A DNA stretch of 64,000 bases from Branchiostoma floridae (lineage: Eukaryota > Chordata > Leptocardii > Amphioxiformes > Branchiostomatidae), in the NCBI RefSeq assembly GCF_000003815.2, contig NC_049991.1:9866506-9930505 (forward strand), written 5' to 3'. Positions within the stretch are counted from its first letter, which is position 1. Each line of letters begins with the position of its first letter. The notes under the pieces were generated by a model. The model ran no database searches. It was not told the origin of the DNA and saw only the letters and a list, made by a program, of their open reading frames with translations. Made by a program: the position numbers and the translations under genes. Below, piece by piece: positions 5,868 to 57,108 of this stretch.

Positions 5868-6020
5868 CCCCACCTAACTACTTCTGCATTTCCCCCTACC
5901 CGTTCTCCTTTTCCCCCGGACTTCTCCTTAACCCCCGCTGTACTTCTGCTGTGCCCCCGTCCTTCTTCTTGGCCCCCGGTGTACTTCTGCTTGCCCCCCG
6001 CCCTTCTGCTTAACCCCCAA
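5868..6020. repeat. Pyrimidine-rich degenerate tandem repeat
   Basis: About six imperfect copies of a unit of about 25 bp of the form cttctgctt-n-ccccccg. The strand asymmetry (C and T on plus) is strong. The 80-residue open frames on both strands here are products of the repeat. Confidence 0.6.
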
Positions 6021-14373: not shown

Positions 14374-17300
14374 ATGACGTCATCAGACGAGAGGAGGGGC
14401 GGCATGGAGAGCACGAGGCGGGTAGCGATCATCGGGGCCGGGGTGAGCGGGCTGGCCTGCATCAAGGCCTGCCTGGAGGAGGGGCTGGAGCCGGTGTGCT
14501 TCGAGCAACATGACCAACTGGGTAAGCGGCGCCATTTTTTCAGCACCAAGGACAGCAGAAGTCAAGCATATTATGGGACTAGAGGAGTGCATAGTTATGA
14601 CATCATGCATTGTGACGTCACATTCCTATATATATATATGAAGACGTACAAGACAAATTAGATTCTTGCGTAACCGTCTTCTTTATGACGCTCGCTGGGG
14701 CGTCTCAACGGCACCCGCGTTCATCCAATGTTGTAACTCGTACATATGTAAATAATTGCTTTCAATTTTTTTCCACACCACTCATAGTTTCTTGCCATTC
14801 AATAGTCTTTCTCTCCCTCTCCTTACTTCTATGATAGACTTGTCTTGATTGGGTAGATAAATTGTACGCCTGAACGTAACACCCGTCCATGGCCCCCCGT
14901 TAAGCAATCGGCGCACCAATTCATGGGCCATTTTGGGATACTGATGGCCGGGCACTGTCGGGAGTAATTGCGTTTCAGCGCCATCCGGGGACGCGCTTAT
15001 CGTTCAAGAATCAATACCACCAACCCACGTACGAAACAGCACCCCAGCCGACAGGAATAAGTCTGGGAACAGAGCACCGCTGATACAGTTTACCTTTCGG
15101 TGTCAATAGTGCTTGACTGGAATCATTTGTCAGCAACGCCTTTCTAAAACTCGTCTATCGATTTATTCATGCCGTAATCTACTCGGCAGTGTGCGAGCGT
15201 TAATGCGGTCTGATGGTCTCCTGAAAGAGACCCATATGTCCTGTAAACGCGCCGTGTATTACTCGTTTAGAATGTTGTATGTATGAAATGATGCAGCAAA
15301 TTTAGTGCGTTTCCATGAAAGAGATACTTTACAACGTTATGCATTCATAGAGATGGTAGCTTACAATAGCCATTATGCAAGGACGTAATTTTTCTCTCAA
15401 TGAAAAATGCGACATAAACATTAACACGATTTCTCCACTATCACTGGTAATTCATTTTTACTTGATTAAGGAAAGTCTGCATACATACAGCATTCGTGTC
15501 GCAATATCCAATCCCATTAATTCAGTAACACATAACAGATGCCACCTTACCGCAGATTATTGTCATTATCCATATTCCATTCCCGTCTGCCGCAAACCGG
15601 ATCTAATGCAAATGTAGTGCATGCATAATGCTTCTTCCTTCGCGCCTAAATGAATTTTCTCTACTCCAGTCAATTTCATTCGTTGTTTCGTGAAACTCTG
15701 TCTTAAATGTTGTATATACAGAAAGATTTACTGGCAAGTTCGTGCGCAAAGGCTAGTTGTAAATACATGGACATGAGAAACACACATGTAGTAGAGACGT
15801 ACTAGGAAACAGGCCTGTTACAAGGGCAGTGATTGACATTATTGCAATTGTACATAACAAGAGACTAATTTAGATACTACTACTCGCGTTGGCTATATCT
15901 CACATATTGTTATATTTCTACTAAAGATTATTTGAAAGCGGCTAGGCTACGAAAACAACCATTTGTACCTGAGAATTTCAATACCTTGTGACATGGTGTG
16001 GTGCAATAGTACGGGGAGTTGACACGATCAATCATGCTTTGATCAATTTCAACCTTCTATGCTTTATATATACACGACATGTGCCTTTGTCACTAGAAAT
16101 TGGGACTAATATTTGCCTATATTAGATGTCTTTCCAGGCGCCTAAATGTAGTTTAGAGCGTAAGGGGGCAATTCACGCTTACATTCCACGAAGCAATGAT
16201 CATATTCAGCATTGCCCTTCAGTGACAAGTAAAGTCCGTTCGTGACTGGAATACTGATAGAAAACCATAAATTCAGTGTACGTGTACGTTTTCTGTTTCA
16301 TATGTATGCATTTCTAAGGATCACATGCTAAGCTTACAGAACTGTGACATCCAAAATTTAGACAAACCTTTGATTTGTAAAACATATCTGTTCTTACATT
16401 TTCAGTATCAAATAAGCGAGAAGAAGTCGAATTCACTGAGTATACTGTCTAGTAGAATAATATCCTTGTGTTGGTTGACATTGTAAATATATGCATTTGT
16501 CAACTATCATTTCGTTTCGACCTGTGCTTAACCCAGTGGGTATATGTACAATAAAGGTCTTCATTCATCATTCAGACATTGTTATACATTGCCTTATTGA
16601 TCTGACTTGGTTGCACTAAAGCTCATGTCTTCAGACGAAGTGTAATAGAAAACCAGTCACTTGATAGCCTGGTATCCAGTCGTAATATAGCTCCCGACTA
16701 GTCCCGAGTCTCTTCTGTCCTCTTCGTAATTGCGAAGAGGAGAGAAGAGACTCAGGAGCTATATTACGGCTGGATACTACTAGTAATTGCGAAGAGGAGA
16801 GAAGAGACTCGGGAGCTATCATATTACGGCTGGATACCAGGCTAGTCGCTTGAGGCCGTGGATAAGAATACAATCCAATTTCCCACTGATTAGTAGTTGA
16901 ATTACTAGTCAATCTGCCAATCCTGTTAATTCTATTTAGGAGGAGTTTGGTATTACACAGACGAGCCACGCCCTAACCAAGGAGCGACTATCTACAAGTC
17001 CCTGGTCAGTAACAGGACCAAGGAGATGATGTCATTTAGCGATTTCCCTCAACCCAAGGAGGCTCCGCCCTTCCTGCCGTACACGCAGGTTCACAGCTAC
17101 CTGCGGGAGTTCGCAGACAAATTTGAGCTCATGAAGTTCATCCAATTTGGTGTGCAGGTACGTAATGAATGAGATTATTGCCTGGTACATCTGTGTAGGG
17201 ACCGATCACGAGTTATAGCATGGGGGGGATCAGGGGAGCAGTGGTGAATTTGGAGAGTTGAGCAAAACTAAATTATAACCTGGAATGTAGGTTCATCTGT

Positions 17301-38658: not shown

Positions 38659-41600
38659 TCAAACTGATTCCTTGTCCTGTTCCACTGTACAGGAAGTGCT
38701 GTTTTCCTGTTCTACAAGCTCATGAGAATATCTGCAGTCATCCCCGTATACACAGTGGCCCTGCAAAATAGAGAGAGTCACGCATTTATACGCTTGAAAT
38801 GTTAGATATCATTCTGCAGACCTATTGAACAAAATTTAAAGAAAATCATTGCTCAAGTCATCAAAATCAATAATATACCTTAGCTTTATATCTTCTTTAT
38901 GAATGATTGGAGGAAGGAAGTAATGTTTGAACAAATGGACTGACTGAATTGATCATATTGGGCATGCATAGATCATCAGACCTTTTTCATATACTAAAAA
39001 TCTACTGCTACTGATGTACTATGGATATACATGTATTTTTGGTGAGGAGTGAATAGTGTGTTTGTGGGAGACTGACCTGTTTGAATCTCTTACAGGGGAA
39101 TTGTTTCAGGTCCAACAGTTCCTGCTGTCGTTTACCCTGCAGTCTTCTCCTCCTGTCTTCCTGAGCCTCCTCACTGTACATACACACACACATGTGTAAA
39201 CAAAACAAATAAACAAACACACACACACAACATAGGCATACATAAACAGACAGACACACACAGACACACAGAAAGAAAGAGAGGGAAAGAAAGAATGATA
39301 TATTACTCTTCCGTAATGTTACAATGGTACAATTTATGCACATAACTTTATATAACCATACTGAAATGATCTTTCATTGATGTTGGGTTTTCTATGGCAT
39401 TGATCAATGCCAGACAAACTAAAATGTATTTCACTAGTTCTGATGACTGAAGTTAGACAAGTATGTTTCATTTAAGGGTTAATGACCCGCCCCGAGGTGT
39501 ATATGGTGTCATAACGCCTGGTCCTTTGCTATAACTACTGAATAAAACCACTGATGTGAGCGAAGCGAACGAGGTGGTTTTATGAGGTGGTTATAGCAAA
39601 GGACCAGGCGTTATGGCACCATGTACACCGAGGAATAGGCGGGTCATTAACGTTATTATCATATAGCCTACCCAAACTTGCAAGCTCCTGTATGACGCAT
39701 AGATCTCTTGGTACTATACGTGTGAATTCCTTTGTCGAATTTCTGAAAATTTACATTTGTTCTTTGGTACATGCATATGTAAGGAGATTACACATTGCAT
39801 TTTAAAACAAAAATTTCCACAGAAAATATTCCAAACATTGCAGGCTTTTTAGAACAACAAAACTTATTATCAATGTTAGAAGGAGCCATTCCCCCTTGCA
39901 GTCTGTACTTATTCTCTCTGCTCTGGCATATGTTTCACTCCTTTTTATTGGCCGATGCCTGCATATACCTTACTTTCTTGTGTGTATTGCCACTTTTGAT
40001 TGGTCAAATGCAAATCGACACCGGTGCCGGTGTCAATTCATTCTGACCAATGAGAGGAGCGATAGCCACCTGCCTGGCCTGAATCTTTGTGTTACGGCGT
40101 CATAACCAACGTGGAACGGGGCCTTCTGATTGGTCTGCGGCACCTGGCTATATGATAATGTATTTTAATGACTGGTGGATATCTCTACCTGGAATCGTCT
40201 ATGAATTTGAATGACATAACTGGCACACAGCTTACCACCACAGTTAGAGTTTGTATAATGTGCATACCCTCGTCCAGCCCTAGCCTTTGGCCCCCAGTTT
40301 GGAGGGTTCTCCTGAAACCTCTTCAGACCTTTCTGTCGAGATGCAGGGTTGGCGTCTGCTCGGATAGTGAAGTTTGCCTCAATCCTGCAATCCATAAACA
40401 AACAAACAAAATAGACACTACAATTGTCAACAAACACAGACTGAGAAAAATCTTCAAAAAAACATCTAATACTGTCTCTGATCTTGCTTGCCTGATACAC
40501 TTGTATCTGCAAAGTACGATACGTTTGCAAGATCAACATACACAAATTCTTTGCCGATAATATCACATCCTATAAAAGAGCATAGTATTTTTTTTACGTG
40601 CATGCACACTATAGCAAGTAAGTTATGGAACTTCACCCTGGTTCTTTGCCCAGTATAGTAGAAGCTACAGCATCACTTGAAAGTCTGCTTGAGTTGGCTG
40701 GGTTCTGCTTAGCCTGAAAAACACATTATGTGTGCATACTGTTACAACAACAGAACTATTTCTGTCATGCAGTTAATATTCCTTTTGTTTAGTTACTATA
40801 TGCCTAACTACATTATGTAGCAGGCCAGGGGGCAATCATAGAAAATGTGGCATACATAACAGACTGGGTAAATTTTCACTTGGAATTCACTTCAAGCATT
40901 TATTGCATACACCTTGTGTATAAGTAATGTAGATGTAACTGTAGTATATGTGGTGGTGTTGAAATTCTGTTGTGAACAACAACAAAAACAAACAAACACA
41001 GTCTGTGTGTAGATAGTGTTTCTTACCCAGCCCCTCATGATGTCCCAGATGACATGTGCAGGTGCATCTGTCTTGACAGCTGTCTTACAGGTGTGGGACA
41101 AGGACACCTGGTACCCAGCATGTAAGATGGCAGACCTGGAGACAAGGGGAGGGTTGGGAAAGGTTACATACCTCATTTACCTCCATTCTGCAACCTTTAC
41201 CATCAATAGTAAAAGTAGAATGGCAGAGGACAAAGCTCTGTGAGTACATGTAGCTTAAGATACAAATTCTACAAGTAGATGCAACTTTAACATTTCTTTT
41301 AATTTGTAAAACATGCTGTGGTGAACAGCAGACAGAGAAAAATAAAATTAAAAAAAAACACTACAAAGCTCTACATAGCACTCAAGTTCAGTGGCATATC
41401 AATGGTACACAGCTGCCAAGTGTTTCATCTTAAATAGTGGTGATGGGCATAAGTCTTAGAAGCTTGGGGCTACTGTACTTTCCCTTATGTCATAAACCAC
41501 AGTGTCCTGTAGCCTCTGTTGTGTGTATGGATGTCCTGCCAGTTGAGGGTGTTAAAATGTTTGCTTAAACTGACCTGACAGCCAACAGAGGTGGACAGTT

Positions 41601-44600
41601 GACTCGGACCACACTGGCCAGTTTGTCCAGGCAGTAGAACATTGGGCAGTCTGGCAACTCCTGAATCAAATAAAAGGAAGAATGGAGATTGCAGATCATA
41701 AAATTCCAGGGTCAGAACATTCTTAATGTAAGAGCAATAATGTACATGTGAGAATGAGAATGATTTACTTGCCTAAAGGCTGAATTGTTTAACACATTAC
41801 AAGGGAGAGTGTACACTGCCAGGAAAGTTTGTTTGCATTAGACCATGACTAAAGGGGTAATGGAGGATACTTTTTGTGATATCCACAAACTGTACACATC
41901 ACATAAATGTACATATACAATTGTATATATGAGTATACATGTTACATACAATGATGATGCTTCTGTTACGTTATTAGACTATTTCTGGCTTTTCTCAGTC
42001 CCACAATCTTGTTTTCTTGGGCATTAACACACAAATGAGAGAGTTCTAATGTGATTACCAACTCCTAGGACCCACCTCAGACACCACACTGAGCATGCCC
42101 ACCATCCTCTGGGCTGTGTTGAACCTGTCTGAGGAGTTCTCCACGGAGCTCAGCAGTCTCTGGACAAGCCCTGCATCATGGAGTGGCTCTGCCCAGACAG
42201 GACCTCCAATCTACAACAAACACAGTTTATATCATGGAGAGGCTCTGCCCAGATAGGACCTCCAATCTACAACAAACACAGTTTATATCATGGAGAGGCT
42301 CTGCTCAGATAGGACCTCCAATCTACAACAAACACAGTTTATATCATGGAGCAGCTCTGCCCAGATAGGACCTCCAATCTACAACAGACACAGTTTATAT
42401 CATGGAGAGGCTCTGCCCAGATAGGACCTCCAATCTACAACAAACACAGTTTATATCATGGAGAGGCTCTGCCCAGATAGGACCTCCAATCTACAACAAA
42501 CACAGTTTATATCATGGAGAGGCTCTGCTCAGATAGGACCTCCAATCTACAACAAACACAGTTTATATCATGGAGCAGCTCTGCCCAGATAGGACCTCCA
42601 ATCTACAACAGACACAGTTTATATCATGGAGAGGCTCTGCCCAGATAGGACCTCCAATCTACAACAAACACAATTTATATCATGGAGAGGCTTTGCCCAG
42701 ATAGGACCTCCAATCTACAACAAACACAGTTTATATCATGGAGAGGCTTTGCCCAGATAGGACCTCCAATCTACAACAAACACAGTTTATATCATGGAGT
42801 GGCTCTGCCCAATCTACAACAAACACAGTTTACATCATGGAGAGGCTCTGCCCAGATAGGACCTCCAATCTACAACAAACACAGTTTATATCATGGAGAA
42901 GCTCTGCCCAATCTACAACAAACACAGTTTATATCATGGAGTGGCTCTGCCCAGATAGGACCTCCAATCTACAACACAGTTTATATCATGGAGAGGCTCT
43001 GCCCAGATAGGACCTCCAATCTACAACACAGTTTACATCATGGAGAGGCTCTGCCCAGATAGGACCTCCAATCTACAACAAACACAGTTTATATCATGGA
43101 GAAGCTCTGCCCAATCTACAACAAACACAGTTTATATCATGGAGAGGCTCTGCCCAGATAGGACCTCCAATCTACAACAAACACAATTTATATCATGGAG
43201 TGGCTCTGCCCAGATAGGACCTCCAATCTACAACAAACACAGTTTATATCATGGAGAGGCTCTGCCCAGATAGGACCTCCAATCTACAACAAACACAGTT
43301 TATATCATGGAGAGGCTCTGCCCAGATAGGACCTCCAATCTACAACAAACACAGTTTATATCATGGAGAGGCTCTGCCCAATCTACAACAAACACAGTTT
43401 ATATCATGGAGAAGCTCTGCCCAATCTACAACAAACACAGTTTATATCATGGAGCGGCTCTGCCCAGATAGGACATCCAATCTACAACAAACACAGTTTA
43501 TATCATGGAGAAGCTCTGCCCAATCTACAACAAACACAGTTTATATCATGGAGAAGCTCTGCCCAATCTACAACAAACACAATTTATATCATGGAGAGGC
43601 TCTGCCCAGGTAGGACCTCCAATCTACAACAAACACAGTTTATATCATGGAGTGGCTCTGCCCAGATAGGACCTCCAATCTACAACAAACACAGTTTATA
43701 TCATGGAGAGGCTCTGCCCAGACAGGACCTCCAATCTACAACAAACACAGTTTATATCATGGAGTGGCTCTGCCCAGATAGGACCTCCAATCTACAACAA
43801 ACACAGTTTACATCATGGAGCGGCTCTGCCCAGATAGGACCTCCAATCTACAACAAACACAGTTTATATCATGGAGAGGCTCTGCCCAATCTACAACAAA
43901 CACAGTTTATATCATGGAGGGGCTCTGCCCAGATAGGACCTCCAATCTAAACACAGGTTAAAGACAAGTTCTAGTAAATCAATCTACACTCCATCTACTT
44001 TAGGGTTGCCTGGAAAAACTGTTATTGCCATCAGTGTTACCGGATTCCCAGATCAGAGGAGTTCAAAGATGGTTCGAGTTTCCAGATCTGCTGGGTTCCC
44101 GTTCAGCAGGAATCCCTGATCATCATGATCATCAGCTTTTCTGGATCATCCAGAATCTCATACCCATTTCAAAAATTGCGACAAACCCAAATTCTAACAA
44201 GTCCACAACTTGATCCAAAATAACACACATAAAGGGATCATAATGTCTGTTATACTTCCATACACAATTCAGAGCTAAATTCCAAGGGAACCGTGTAAAC
44301 TGCAGTTCTGTACTGACCTGATGTGTGGCGCTGCAGTGTTCACATTTGGGCCCAACCGGAGGACCATTGCCTGGATGGAACTTCACACTGAATAGGACAT
44401 AGAAGTGAGGAGTCAGAGACAACATCATGCAATATGCATAACATGTATAAAACTGGATGTGGATTTTCTTACTTGTAATCAATAACATCCATATTCCTGT
44501 CAATTCACATATTTTAAGATTATCTATTTCATGATGGTAGTAGGGGAATTTTTTGTGGTGTTCTAATACGTTTGTATTTGAAATAATTCCCAAGGAAACT

Positions 44601-47600
44601 TATTTGAGTGATACAATGGAAACACATATTTAAGATGCAAAAAAAAATGCAAACACATTCAGATTTACAGTAGTATGCTGCAAATATATACACATGTAAA
44701 TTGATGTGGAGTACAATGCATGGAAGTAATACTGTTGCTCTATGGTATATCAACGGTACAATGAAGTTAAAGCAATACAACAGCACTGAAATATAGTGCA
44801 GCAAGAGCTACTGTACGTGTACAATAGTCCTGTTAGAACCACCACTGACCTGTTCTATAACATACATGTATCTTCACTACATCATGTATTTTCATCTTTA
44901 CCTGCGATTTTTCTCCACAATCCTGCCGATCCTCTGCACATTGAAGGTTTCGCAGCCAGAACAATGGTACACCATGGCTTGTTTACTATGGAAAACAGAA
45001 GACATCACTCAACAAAAACTATTTCTGTGAACATTACACCTATCAATCAATAAGACTAGGCCTAGGGGTTAATCAGTGGATCAACTCTGTCTATCTGGTC
45101 ATAGCATGCAACTTGCACTTACTGGTTACTGCAAATACATGTACTTTAACTTTCATATTGACTTTCTTTAATTGGCAGTAGGAGGGAAAATGAGGTTTTC
45201 ACTGTGTTTGAAGCTTATGGTGGAAACAATTTTGAAGTTAGTAGAACTACAAAACACATATTCGTGGTATTATGATTTTACAGTAGTAAGAGGTTGCTGC
45301 AAAATCACTGAGAATGAAACTATTGTGAACATTTCAAGTGATACATTCAAACCAACCTGGCAGATCTCTTGGCCTGTGCCTGGCTAATGTAGACTCGCAC
45401 AAACACACGGCAGTAGAAGTCTGCGAACAGCGATAGCTGAGGCACGATGTAGCGATGGTAACGGTTGGCATGACGATCCAAACAGGACAGGACAATCCGC
45501 AGGGCCTGCATAATCACAGGAGGTACCAGGCAACAGACTAGAGTCAATCAGTTGAAATTTACACTCCTAAATTTCCCATAAAAATGTTTTTACATTGCAT
45601 TGCATTGCAGTACTGAGAGATTTCTTACAGCAAAATAGCGGAGATGGCCTTTAACACACTATTTTTCTGATAAAGTCAAAAAGTTAGTCCTAAACAATAC
45701 AAGCAAAGGGGAAAAACTATACTAGGTGTTGATTAAAGCAGATACAAAATGTATAATCCTCCTGAAAATGAGTTTCTCAATCTCAACCAGAAACAGACCT
45801 AAATGCTCTGGACTAGTCAAAGTAGCTAAGGTAGCCCCAAAGCCTTTTTGAGGTCAAAGGGGCAGTGGGTTCTTATCCACTGTGTCTATAGCACAATATT
45901 GGAAGGCAGAGCCCATCCCTCTCCTTCCATTGCTTTCTGCAATTGCTTCCACAACCAAAGTCAGGTGCACATTTGATACTTGGGTGCAGGAAGGAAATCA
46001 AAGTTGTGTACAATGACTTGCCAGGACTGACAGCATTAGAAAATTCTATTAGAAGATCTATGTCTTATGCAAGATTGGGTAAGAATTTGGCAGTTACCAT
46101 CTCATGGCAGTACTTGGCTCTGAGTGACATGGAGCCATACTTGGTCCAGCAGGTTTCTGAGCCATTGCCACACATCACAGCAGCATCCGTACATGTGATA
46201 CACAGCAAACCTACAGGGAGATATAAAATATTACAGCAGACATCACAGCAGCATCCGTACATGTGATACACAGCAAACCTACAGGGAGATATAAAATATT
46301 ACAGCAGACATCACAGCAGCATCCGTACATGTGATACACAGCAAACCTACAGGGAGATATAAAATATTACAGCAGACATCACAGCAGCATCCGCACATGT
46401 GATACACAGCAAACCTGGGGGGAGATACAAAATATTACAGCAGATATCACAGCAGCATCCGTACATGTGATACACAGCAAACCTGCAGGGAGATACAAAA
46501 TATTACAACAGACATCACAGCAGCATCCGTACATGTGATACACAGCAAACCTGCAGGAGATACAAAATATTACAGCAGACATCACAGCAGCATCCGTACA
46601 TGTGATACACAGCAAACCTGCAGGGAAATACAAAATATGTGTTGCAACAGCAATGTTCCAATGTCCGAATCAGGTATTCGAATTGCCAACCGGCCCGCTT
46701 GAAACAGTTCGATTTATTCGAATGGAGCCTGTGTGATATGCCTTTCGAACCTGTGCGATACGGAAACGTATGGCCCGGTCCGGAACACCCGTATCGAACG
46801 TTTTCGCGTCACAGGTATGACATAAAAAATATTACAACAGACATCACAGCAGCATCTGTACATGTGATACACAGTAAACCTGCTGATAAATACAAAATAC
46901 TATGTCAACAACTTTTAACAGCAGTCTATGATTACCTTCAGTATCTCTAATAATGGAACTGACATGGATGAATAATATGAGCATTCCACAATTTGAGAAC
47001 AGTCTACAAAAATGCATGAACATGCCTATCCCTGGTCATATTCTGTAGAGATCAGTCTTTTAACAAAAAGTATCATTATATAAATGAAAAGATGTACTTG
47101 TATCAATTATGTACATTTTACAGTAGTGGCCATAATAGAAGCACACAGTATGAACATGCCCTACCTCCATCTTTCACTGACTGTACAGCACTGTCCAGAA
47201 AGGCCGACGGACTGCCATAGGGGTCAAGGTCAATGACATCGAACTTGATCTGCTTCCCGCGGTGTTCATACATGTAGGCACTGGGGAGATAACAACGGAT
47301 ACTGGATTCTAATTTTCAATGTTTTTAAAACTGCTTTTCTACACCTTAGGTTTACAGTACAATACGAGATCTGAACCTCTTTCAGAAAATTGATTTTACC
47401 TAGAACTACATTGTATAGAAGAACTTGTTTCCACCAAGTAAAGTAGGAGAATCTTCAATAGTTAGAACATGGACATCTTTTCTCAGCCAATCGGCCCTCC
47501 GGGACTCCAACAAACTCCTCTGGTGGGCAGAGCAGTACCAAATTCACATAGTCAGGCCACTCCCATGATCTAACTATTACATAGCTTCAAACAATGCTCA

Positions 47601-50011
47601 CAGCTAGATGTGTAAAGGTTAGGTGGTGGGGCATTCAGTGTTAATGTTATAGCTGGATCACCTACATTGATACAGATACCAGAAGAGAAAATATGTAAGA
47701 TGATCTATTAAGCCCCCATAACCAACCTGGCATCTGCATGGTTAGCCACGACCATGTCATCCACGCCGTTATGCGTGATGTTCTTCTGGATAGAGCTGAC
47801 TGCCTCTCGTGACAAGTCGTTGGCTACGATTTCCTTGATCCCCGGCACTTCCTTGGCGAACCTGACTGCACGAAGACCCGTCGCTGACAAGGCCTCCAGG
47901 ATAGTAATGCCGTCCTGGGAAGTAACGTGACAACACATGTGAATATTCAAAACAATATCTACATTTCTGCTGTCTTCATTCAAGCTTTAGCTTCAGATGT
48001 AAAGGGTTCACAAATAATGTACAATTTTGATTATTGCAATCCATGGCTGTATCATCAATATACTGTTTATGAAAACCTTAAATTTTCTATTGCTCATATT
48101 TAGTGTTATAAGTTACCAGGAGTAATTTTTTAAGCAATTGTATGAAAATATAAAAATTTTTGGTGCAGATGTTATTTCTTCATTTGAATAATTTACTGTT
48201 GTATTTTTAAACTCAAATTTCTTATTCAAATTTTTTAGGGCACCCTAATTTTTTTAGTCTTCGTTTTCTCCTGCTGAATGTCTATCTAACAATTCTTCCT
48301 ACCTATCCCTTACCTGGCATTTCTCCCCTGCTTGTACCATGTCTGTATTGTCCTGGCTCCCTGTTGGAAGGTCATCTGTTGCCAGCCTTTCTTTGTCCGA
48401 CTGTTCCAAACCTATTCCACCAACTACAGACATGTAAAAAAACAGTAAATTTCTTTCTTTAGTTTTGAACCAACATTTAACATCTATTATCATAATACCG
48501 GTACGTTTACGACGATTTCTCTAGCCATACTGAATTGACAAATTGTCAACGCATCATTTTCTCCAGTTACATGTTGCTGTTATAGGTTACCCTTGCCACT
48601 TCTTCTGTGTAACTTTTCTGCCACTCTTGTCCTGCTAAAAGCGTAATATTGTAATTGTAACACGCCGCGGAATTACACGGCGAACGGGCGCGTGGTTGGG
48701 AGGGGGTAAAAAATACCGGTAGGAAGAAACACGGCACAATTAACTGCCGCTATGTACATTTATACATCCTCTGATGTTCCTTCCTTTAGTGTCAGTAAAT
48801 GCATAAAACATAAACCTGCATGAGCATACAAAATGTCATGAGAAAACGGACGTATACTGTCAAGAATTTTCATTTAACTTCTGTCCGTCACAACCGCTAT
48901 GACGTAACACTTCACTGCTAGCGTAGATATAAAAATGGCGGGAAAATGGCTGCGTACGTTCAATTTTGCCCATTCAGTCGTAGATCCGGGCTATTATGCA
49001 ACGGTTCTTCACACTTTTACATGAGTTGTAGGTCACCAACAGAAATTCAAGATTGTTGTTGAATCATGTTCGTCTTGTGCCGTGAGCATGTGTAATTATG
49101 ATCTATAAATTTGGCAATGAATGTGACAGTGTGTTCGTCCCACGACGAGCTGCCTACCCCGAAAAAGATACTGAAAACTTTTGGCCTTGTTGTCTTCGAA
49201 TGCATTGTTATCGATGCTTTGTAAATGGTGTATTGGACACCTAGATGTCTGAAGTGTGCACAGCTCAGAAATAACTATTGTTGCATGTGTAGATCTCTTT
49301 AAGTTCCAGTATTTTTAATCTACCGGTATAAGTCTTACTACCGGTATTATGCCAATGCATGTTAAACTTTCTCTTGCTGTTTATGACAACAGTTTTGTAC
49401 TTGGAACTGTGCATTTGACAGCATATTGCTTGACTGTAATGCAAAGCATTCCTAACTATGCACCATGACAAACTCACCTGATACTCCTTTCTTCTTGAGT
49501 TGTTCTTCAGCAAATAGGCTGATGACAGCAACACTAGAAAAATGCGCAAGAACTTCATGAATTCATGATCATTTCAAATTGTTGTACTGCACAATATGAA
49601 AATGTCAGAGGAAATATTTTGATGATAACCATGATAATGAAATTGAAGGTTGACTTACGTTAGGTCCCTGTTAAACTCCTGTACAGGATTGTAAAACACC
49701 TTGTTCTTATTAGGGAACAGGATTTCTGCCTTCCCTTCCTTTACAATGGTATAGTCTGAAGGACTGACTGCGGTTTGGTCACTCTGGCCTGTTCCATTGG
49801 TGTCTGTGGGAACTTCGGTGCTAGTTCTTTGTGACACTTGCTCTGTCTTAGTTTCCATACTTCTTAAAAATGAACTGCCAAGGATATTAGTATCCTTTTG
49901 GCACAGAAACTCCTTGAGTCTTGGTTTGAGAAAACTAGGGTACCCACTCAGACAGCGCAATAAAAGTTTTGATGATGATATCGCGATTGCAGGTTTCAAC
50001 CTTGTCCACAT
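38659..50011 (-). CDS. TRMT1: tRNA (guanine26-N2)-dimethyltransferase, complete, 16 coding exons
   Basis: SAM-dependent enzyme making m2,2G at tRNA position 26. Exons in transcript order: 50011-49659, 49533-49478, 48423-48314, 47914-47727, 47280-47165, 46210-46098, 45505-45357, 44985-44902, 44387-44318, 42210-42076, 41660-41575, 41135-41027, 40713-40637, 40384-40268, 39173-39077, 38760-38659. Phases all agree; product 653 aa (human TRMT1 659). Seen: [17 protein letters not shown] motif [10 protein letters not shown] (about 179-188), catalytic DPYG (255-258), zinc pairs HCSGC (C370, C373) and CEHC (C405, C408), and the C-terminal CCCH finger C615-x7-C623-x5-C629-x3-H633. The N terminus [20 protein letters not shown] looks like a mitochondrial presequence; Met52 follows it in frame. 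Exons 46210-46098 and 42210-42076 each abut a tandem array of their own acceptor regions. Confidence 0.95.
39181..39290. repeat. CA-rich simple repeat in TRMT1 intron
   Basis: Impure CA, AAAC and AGAC repeats immediately upstream (in transcript sense) of the exon at 39173-39077, on the minus strand a pyrimidine/TG-rich tract before the acceptor. Confidence 0.7.
39478..39651. mobile_element. 174-bp near-palindromic MITE in TRMT1 intron
   Basis: gttaatgacccgcc at the left mirrors ggcgggtcattaac at the right, and the complementarity continues inward through aacgcctggtcctttgctat and atagcaaaggaccaggcgtt to a short centre near 39560. Arms of about 75-80 bp with scattered mismatches. No coding capacity. 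Confidence 0.75.
39655..40159. mobile_element. Candidate 505-bp inverted-repeat element next to the palindrome
   Basis: attatcatatagcc (39655-39668) and ggctatatgataat (40146-40159) are perfect 14-bp inverted repeats. Inside, gattggtcaaatgc and tctgaccaatgag form further partial inverted similarity. It abuts the MITE at 39478-39651, so one may have inserted beside or into the other. No coding frame. Confidence 0.45.
42175..43950 (-). repeat. Minisatellite of TRMT1 splice-acceptor/exon-start units (about 34 copies, 56 bp)
   Basis: On the minus strand each 56-bp unit is 20 bases of intron end (ataaactgtgtttgttgtag) plus 36 bases equal to the first 12 codons of the exon at 42210-42076 ([12 protein letters not shown]). 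The gene-proximal unit is the real exon start; it differs from the array consensus at two positions (GTC for ATC, CCA for CCT). I count about 34 units, including eight 43-bp variants missing 13 bases and two of 51 bp. Every unit I read keeps tgttgtag followed by attgg. Units 2-5 and 6-9 repeat as a four-unit block. Neither 56 nor 43 is a multiple of three, and read-through from a distal unit meets stop codons. Confidence 0.95.
46172..46640 (-). repeat. Second minisatellite of TRMT1 splice-acceptor/exon-start units (seven copies, 68 bp)
   Basis: Each 68-bp unit (minus strand) is about 29 bases of intron end (...atatctccctgtag) plus about 39 bases equal to the start of the exon at 46210-46098 ([13 protein letters not shown] when completed by the preceding G). 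Seven units with almost constant 68-bp spacing; the gene-proximal one is the real exon start. An eighth, more diverged unit lies at about 46842-46905 beyond an insertion. This is the same architecture as the array at 42175-43950 but an unrelated sequence at a different intron. Confidence 0.93.
46641..46824. mobile_element. Insertion splitting the 68-bp array
   Basis: About 184 bases of different composition, rich in ttcgaa and cgaat motifs, separate unit seven from the displaced eighth unit. Similar wording (attcga, cgaatg) fills 60296-60790. No clean terminal repeats found, so its class is unknown. Confidence 0.45.
48880..49052. promoter_or_regulatory. Promoter-like island inside TRMT1 intron 2
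   Basis: A CpG-rich tract (48655-48715) is followed by atgacgtaac (CRE-like, about 48899), tataaaa, and two adjacent motifs aaaatggcggg and aaaatggctgcg. These fit YY1-type initiator sites on plus and an E2F-like ttttcccgcc on minus. A plus-strand ATG in the first motif opens a 31-codon frame. This resembles a start region more than intron DNA; direction and product are unknown. Confidence 0.4.
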
Positions 50012-56447: not shown

Positions 56448-56690
56448 TGCAGTCTGTTTCTAGGAGCGACGTCAGGTTTCCAGACTGTTTCAAAGAGCAA
56501 AGTCTCCATTCTGTTTCTAGGAGCGAGGTTTTCAGTCTGTTTTTAGGAGCCAGGTCTCCATTCTGTTTTTAGGAGCGAGGTTTCAAGTCTGTTTCCAGGA
56601 ACGCGTTCGAACGAGTTTTCCAGTCTATTTCTAGGAACGAAGTTTCCAGTCTGTTTCTAGGAACGAGCTTTCCAGTCTGTTTCTAAGAGC
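56448..56690. repeat. Degenerate minisatellite, about nine copies of 26 bp
   Basis: Plus-strand unit cagtctgtttctaggagcga plus a short gtttc-type spacer. Copies differ by point changes and small indels. Its right end overlaps the last codons and the stop of the minus-strand gene at 56683-57108. Confidence 0.85.
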
Positions 56691-57108
56691 GAGGCTGTCT
56701 ATTTTCGATCCTGGTGGATGAGATGACAGAGATGGTGGCCTGTGACACGTCGCTGTGCCGGGACTGCAGGTGGCGGGAGAACGAGCTGCGGCAGCTCAGG
56801 GACCTCCCCTCGGTGTCCGACGTCTCCACGATCCCGGGCAGCCCGTCTAGCTCCTTCAGGTTGAGTCTCTGCGGCGGCGCGCCGGGCTGGTCCTCCTTCC
56901 GGCTCACCTCCAGTATGCTGCGGAGCCTGTACATCAGGGAGTCCGAGGGGTCGATGGGGGACGGCGGGGCGCTCTCCGTGAACACTATGGCCGTCTGAAC
57001 GGTGATCAGCTCGGACAGGAGCTTCCTCGTGTCGTAGTAGCTTTCCTCCTCCGGCGAGAGGGGACGGACAACAGTCTTGGAGCACATACAGCCTCCTACA
57101 GATCCCAT
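56683..57108 (-). CDS. Small unidentified protein with acylation-type N terminus
   Basis: A 141-residue frame starting at ATG 57108 in a strong Kozak context (ccagccATGGga). I do not recognise the family. It begins MGSVGGCMCSK: Gly2 with nearby Cys7 and Cys9 fits N-myristoylation plus palmitoylation, hence membrane attachment (inference). Codons are GC-ending and composition is normal through SPEEESYYDTRKLLSELITV, a serine-rich C-terminal half, and the end IENRQPRS, supporting real coding. The overlapping longer frame (56699-57340) is Arg/Pro/Gly-rich noise. The frame stays open upstream to 57207, so a 174-aa form is possible. The last codons and stop lie in a minisatellite. It could be a single-exon gene or a terminal exon. 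Confidence 0.6.
   Translation of the reverse strand: MGSVGGCMCSKTVVRPLSPEEESYYDTRKLLSELITVQTAIVFTESAPPSPIDPSDSLMYRLRSILEVSRKEDQPGAPPQRLNLKELDGLPGIVETSDTEGRSLSCRSSFSRHLQSRHSDVSQATISVISSTRIENRQPRS

Follow-up and report, generated by a model that had tools for sequence, protein, structure and literature searches.

Two splice acceptor boundaries duplicated by minisatellites in an amphioxus TRMT1-like gene: a probable large "mirage" with 34 acceptors in one intron

Minisatellites which span exon-intron boundaries, termed "mirages", have already been described in amphioxus genes (Ebner et al., PMC3087553; PMC3902484; both cited here from partial texts), and regular splicing despite the presence of mirages is reported in these papers for Adh3, troponin C (TnC) and the globins. 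Lancelet PGBD5 provides further cases (PMC3902484), and Canestro 2002 is given as the founding Adh mirage paper by the papers which cite it. The unit lengths in the available parts of these reports are 10-72 bp in Adh3, 60 and 108 bp in PGBD5, and 150-160 bp in the globins (PMC3087553, PMC3902484). Two cases in human CBS offer a second point of comparison (PMC2630376, also a partial text). In 844ins68, a 68-bp junction duplication produces two competing sites of which the distal is strongly favoured; the wording of the paper is "donor", yet a title that it cites concerns 3' splice site selection. The 31-bp VNTR c.1444_1467+7(16_21), with 16 to 21 units, spans an exon/intron boundary according to its coordinates, and Lievers et al. 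2001, cited in the same paper, ties it by its title to reduced CBS activity.

The locus described here lies in a window of 64,000 nucleotides of Branchiostoma floridae DNA, which is the whole stretch that was analysed, and it belongs to a gene resembling TRMT1 (tRNA N2,N2-dimethylguanosine methyltransferase). The features on which the argument depends are the following.

38659..50011, minus strand: TRMT1-like coding region, from the GT-AG gene model, Pfam TRM and the PDB Trm1 structure 2dul
44318..44387, minus strand: exon 9, from the gene model, with the donor CAG/GTCAGT that faces the 34 acceptors
42076..42210, minus strand: true exon 10, from the gene model, including the exon part of the last repeat copy
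42175-43953, minus strand: array 1, a minisatellite with a 56-bp unit (TRF) on the intron 9/exon 10 boundary, with 34 acceptors

The gene model places 16 coding exons on the minus strand, all with GT-AG ends; the start ATG at 50011 was picked by eye, and the last exon, whose acceptor is at 38760, contains the stop. Exons 1 to 15 together encode 620 residues, of which residues 92-521 match Pfam TRM (PF02005) at 1.2e-134; this protein also matches the solved Trm1 enzymes 2dul (3.2e-44) and 3axs (2.3e-33). Donor 44318, which the original prediction had named, and acceptor 42210 are exon ends in this model, in which exon 9 ends in phase 0. The original prediction asked, as a check, whether the repeat's exon-like part is the true start of the exon, and on the protein side the answer is that it is: both Trm1 alignments cross the start of exon 10, the 2dul/3axs stretches being GPVWLGPLKD and IGGPLWIGKLWD. 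The gene model and the Pfam and PDB matches together indicate that an intact TRM protein results from joining at the last acceptors, which is compatible with undisturbed splicing of the gene.

The claim that the intron holds about 34 copies of its own acceptor proved accurate, since 34 were counted with a TAG/ATTG pattern on the minus strand, running from 43946 down to 42210, the last copy and the true acceptor; the consensus unit likewise has the proposed make-up of 20 intron bases followed by 36 exon bases. The assertion that every unit keeps both the AG and the exon start held in part: TAG/ATTGG is present in all 34 units, but the 12-codon stretch is incomplete in 8 of them, and the 12-residue starts of true exon 10 and of most full-length decoys do not read alike. 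The 33 spacings comprise 23 of 56 bp, two of 52 bp, which follow units 18 and 19 and reflect the loss of 4 nt from the intron part, and eight of 43 bp, which correspond to units 2, 8, 9, 11, 12, 17, 21 and 23, in all of which an identical 13-nt stretch is missing from the exon part. The search pattern required the TAG itself; because none of the 33 spacings is doubled, no TAG-less unit was skipped. At the edges of the array, the first unit deviates in its intron part, with TTTAACCTGTGTTTAG in place of ATAAACTGTGTTTGTTGTAG, and unit 34, on the exon side, deviates from the consensus at sites which are variable in the decoys too. Intron 9 is 2107 bp long, of which the span from first to last acceptor takes up 1736 bp (82%), leaving 371 bp without it. 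The part of the array near the exon contains a larger repetition:

42231..42678, minus strand: two adjoining four-unit blocks of 224 bp each within array 1, differing at one position

The single difference between these blocks argues for a recent tandem duplication, unless they were made by the assembly.

Array 1 is not a chance product, as can be seen when its boundary is compared with others in the gene. Within 3 kb, 23 further sites agree with the 40 nt around the exon 10 acceptor boundary at 30 or more positions, whereas at the 28 boundaries outside both arrays (13 acceptors and 15 donors) the best match within 3 kb is at most 23/40. Of 150 random control centres, 112 reach at most 24/40 and the remaining 38 score 33 to 40; these 38, whose positions were not printed, are taken to fall inside the arrays. 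On the opposite (plus) strand, long open frames lie over array 1 at 42649-43062 (137 residues), 43218-43613 (131 residues) and 43330-43950 (206 residues), and are probably a by-product of the repeat.

A second array, on which the original prediction was silent, is built like the first and lies further upstream in the same gene.

46172..46638, minus strand: array 2, a minisatellite with 67- and 68-bp units on the intron 5/exon 6 boundary, from TRF and acceptor reading
46840..46900 (edges approximate), minus strand: outermost, diverged copy of array 2, with its acceptor at 46879, from sequence comparison

Its acceptors at 46617, 46550, 46482, 46414, 46346 and 46278 lead in steps of 67 or 68 bp to the true acceptor at 46210, and with the outermost copy the array has seven decoys in addition to the true acceptor, with the AG present in 8 of the 8 copies found. 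Here the search pattern required the AG, but the spacings are so even that a copy could have been missed only between 46879 and 46617, where a gap of 262 bp lies. The array is split by about 195 bp of unrelated sequence with small inverted repeats (about 46640-46835), which possibly represents a mobile-element insertion, and of which blastn found no second copy in the window. The copy at the intron-side edge is diverged in both arrays. In all, 2 of the 15 acceptors in the TRMT1-like gene, and none of its 15 donors, have duplicated boundaries. The like build of the second array points to a general process rather than to a device specific to intron 9.

The arrays are probably best explained as boundary-spanning minisatellites of the mirage type, which are tolerated and spliced to the last copy. 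A short segment straddling the junction of intron 9 with exon 10 would have been tandemly duplicated and then expanded, perhaps driven by slippage or unequal exchange, and the array would be tolerated because the extra copies remain intronic. Donor 44318 would be joined to 42210, the sole acceptor that opens directly onto the full exon, whose donor follows at 135 nt, with the choice of acceptor presumably made by exon context, and the occasional choice of a decoy would yield a stop-containing mRNA that nonsense-mediated decay may be expected to clear. Among the options listed in the original prediction, that the array is simply tolerated is the one which fared best, in view of the amphioxus reports of regular splicing and of the fact that no constraint on the decoys was detected. 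The CBS 31-bp VNTR counts against simple tolerance, since it has been tied to reduced activity.

The case for tolerance is strengthened by the distribution of variation within the unit. Variable sites make up 4/20 of the intron-part and 7/36 of the exon-part positions of the decoys (Fisher p = 1.0, with small numbers), and the exon-part ones fall at codon positions 1, 2 and 3 in 3, 2 and 2 instances. Within these small numbers, neither the intron-exon comparison nor the codon positions gave evidence of coding constraint on the exon parts of the decoys. Units 28 and 32 also carry a nonsense variant, TGG -> TGA, probably a single event which was copied along with its block. The lack of a difference in variability and the presence of this variant make a coding use of the decoys unlikely. 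The same comparison led to the rejection of selection that preserves the AG in each unit, again on small numbers: with similar variability in both parts, the unvarying TAG needs no selection to account for it. No RNA structure that would mask the decoys was found either in the 891 nt adjoining exon 10, about half of array 1, whose fold is less stable than that of every one of 20 shuffles (z +3.68).

The sequences of the individual acceptors raise the question of how the correct one is selected. Candidates were scored with a coarse matrix built from the 12 acceptors of the TRMT1-like gene which lie outside the arrays, with acceptor 38760 excluded. Acceptor 42210 scores 1.36, the third lowest of the 14 scored, and the true acceptor of array 2 scores 4.2; on this matrix 27 of the 33 decoys in array 1 and all seven in array 2, with a maximum of 9.5, equal or exceed the true site. 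The matrix is small, and it also places 62 of the 142 AGs in intron 9 level with the true acceptor or higher, including a GGAG that follows many of the TAGs at a distance of 7 nt, so the only aspect of the scores to be relied upon is the near-equality of near-identical sequences. Because most decoys score at least as well as the true site, correct splicing cannot rest on the core acceptor, and in a working gene the selection has to depend on something beyond it. The complete exon 10, with its donor at 135 nt, would be an obvious candidate for directing this choice. The six decoys nearest to exon 10, however, would add only 56 to 336 nt to it, and exon definition alone would not obviously be enough to exclude them; the decoys must be disfavoured by some factor beyond the sequence features examined here. 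A bolder proposal takes 3' splice site choice in this animal to follow exon context ("last copy wins") over strength or order, for which the two arrays, with their 33 and seven decoys, would serve as a natural test; through leakage to the decoys, the length of an array would become a heritable control of the TRMT1 level that could be tuned and might be somatically unstable. This proposal is judged to be unlikely.

A splicing ladder, or a dosage control through nonsense-mediated decay, in which decoys are used at meaningful rates and the length of the array tunes the output of TRMT1, is possible in principle. It is consistent with the decoy scores, with the occurrence of two arrays in one gene, and with the fate of the decoy reading frames, which is as had been foreseen: only 42210 opens the complete exon and reads through it, while all 33 decoys of array 1 run into a stop, 5 to 38 residues downstream, as do 7/7 decoys of array 2. 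The repeat unit has stops of its own, however, so the stops that follow the decoys are a consequence of the repeat and not a sign of design; moreover, the splice part of the unit is not detectably more conserved than the rest, and other mirages are reported in the available part of PMC3087553 to be without effect on splicing. A regulatory role of this type is accordingly judged to be unlikely.

In favour of an error of assembly, by which the array would have been inflated or its copy number misstated, the window contains runs of N, and the copy number is known from the assembly alone. The mirage in BflGb6 haplotype 1 is described as having looked aberrantly assembled in the genome draft (PMC3087553, partial text), and the near-identical 224-bp blocks could be the part most easily created in this way. 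The units of array 1 are nevertheless varied, with the eight short ones interspersed and with several single-base variants, unlike the plain repetition of one unit, and the same gene contains a second array of like build, so that an artefact is considered very unlikely.

The least probable explanation is that the array is an intermediate in exon or intron gain, with some units spliced as in-frame micro-exons of 36 nt which add 12 residues. The candidates are these:

43812..43847, minus strand: candidate 36-nt in-frame micro-exon of unit 3, with a weak donor GAT/GTAAAC
43037-43072, minus strand: the same in unit 18
42834-42869, minus strand: the same in unit 22

Although GAT/GTAAAC occurs exactly 36 nt past the acceptor in these three units, exon 9 ends in a compatible phase 0, and PMC3087553 proposes, in the part available, intron gain from globin mirages, this explanation is highly improbable given a donor score of 3.06 compared with 5.25 to 12.35 for the 15 true donors (on a hand-entered matrix), an insertion that would land within the TRM domain, and the missense and nonsense variants in the exon parts of the decoys.

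The presence of two arrays on acceptors could suggest that minisatellites prefer exon boundaries, but this was not established. The chance that a random tolerated duplication in the gene spans an acceptor is 0.076 for a 56-bp or 0.098 for a 68-bp segment, and the corresponding chance that two of two do so is 0.006 or 0.010; when evaluated over the 10 tandem-repeat loci of the window (our own count of TRF loci with period at least 10), the chance of at least two acceptor-spanning loci rises to 0.17 or 0.26. Among the other repeats of the window, where the gene models cover TRMT1 alone, a 26-bp tandem repeat at 56450-56694 overlaps and then trails the stop codon of a minus-strand open frame; in a putative flavin monooxygenase gene, an array at 16726-16837 ends about 100 bp ahead of an exon (by eye), and a 57-bp repeat at 16660-16842 lies in an intron, in what appears by eye to be an inverted-repeat element. 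As candidates for further mirages, 56450-56694, 16726-16837 and 5903-6018 (the last by eye only) were rejected, no boundary-spanning repeat being seen in them.

If the preferred reading of the arrays as tolerated mirages is right, the gene adds a large example to a known class, with 34 acceptors spread over 82% of an intron and a second array. Near-identical acceptors which differ in distance and downstream context would form a test system for 3' splice site choice, and the arrays could show how often boundary duplications contribute to new exons or introns. The mirage genes named in the available parts of PMC3087553 and PMC3902484 do not include TRMT1, and the papers found on amphioxus and TRMT1, judged from titles and the beginnings of abstracts, did not deal with the subject.

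As far as their sequence features go, both TRMT1 arrays have those of the published mirage class. The unit spans the boundary in arrays 1 and 2, and the splice signals are kept, with the AG in 34/34 copies of the first and in 8/8 found of the second. As in Adh3, TnC, BflGb6, BflGb9 and PGBD5, to the extent that these are described in the texts available, a boundary has been tandemly duplicated into many copies which carry splice signals beside the authentic one, and the units of 56 and 68 bp fall inside the published range of lengths. The homogenisation within clusters that is reported for BflGb6 is matched in array 1 by the 224-bp blocks with their one difference; the edges of the BflGb6 cluster are reported to escape homogenisation, and in TRMT1 the intron-side copies are diverged while those on the exon side are not clearly so. 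Two arrays in one gene are found in PGBD5 as in TRMT1, but in TRMT1 acceptors alone are duplicated, whereas both ends are reported for the globins. What TRMT1 adds to the cases described in the available texts is the gene, the stop after every decoy, and the size of array 1: it has 34 copies, where one BflGb6 haplotype has 6, the other 3, and PGBD5 has 2 to 7. The human counterparts differ in other respects, as far as they are described in the available part of PMC2630376: CBS 844ins68 likewise duplicates a junction, but it is a human polymorphism with one extra copy where TRMT1 has an array, and the CBS 31-bp VNTR, an array in its own right, sits on the donor side, whereas both TRMT1 arrays sit on acceptors.
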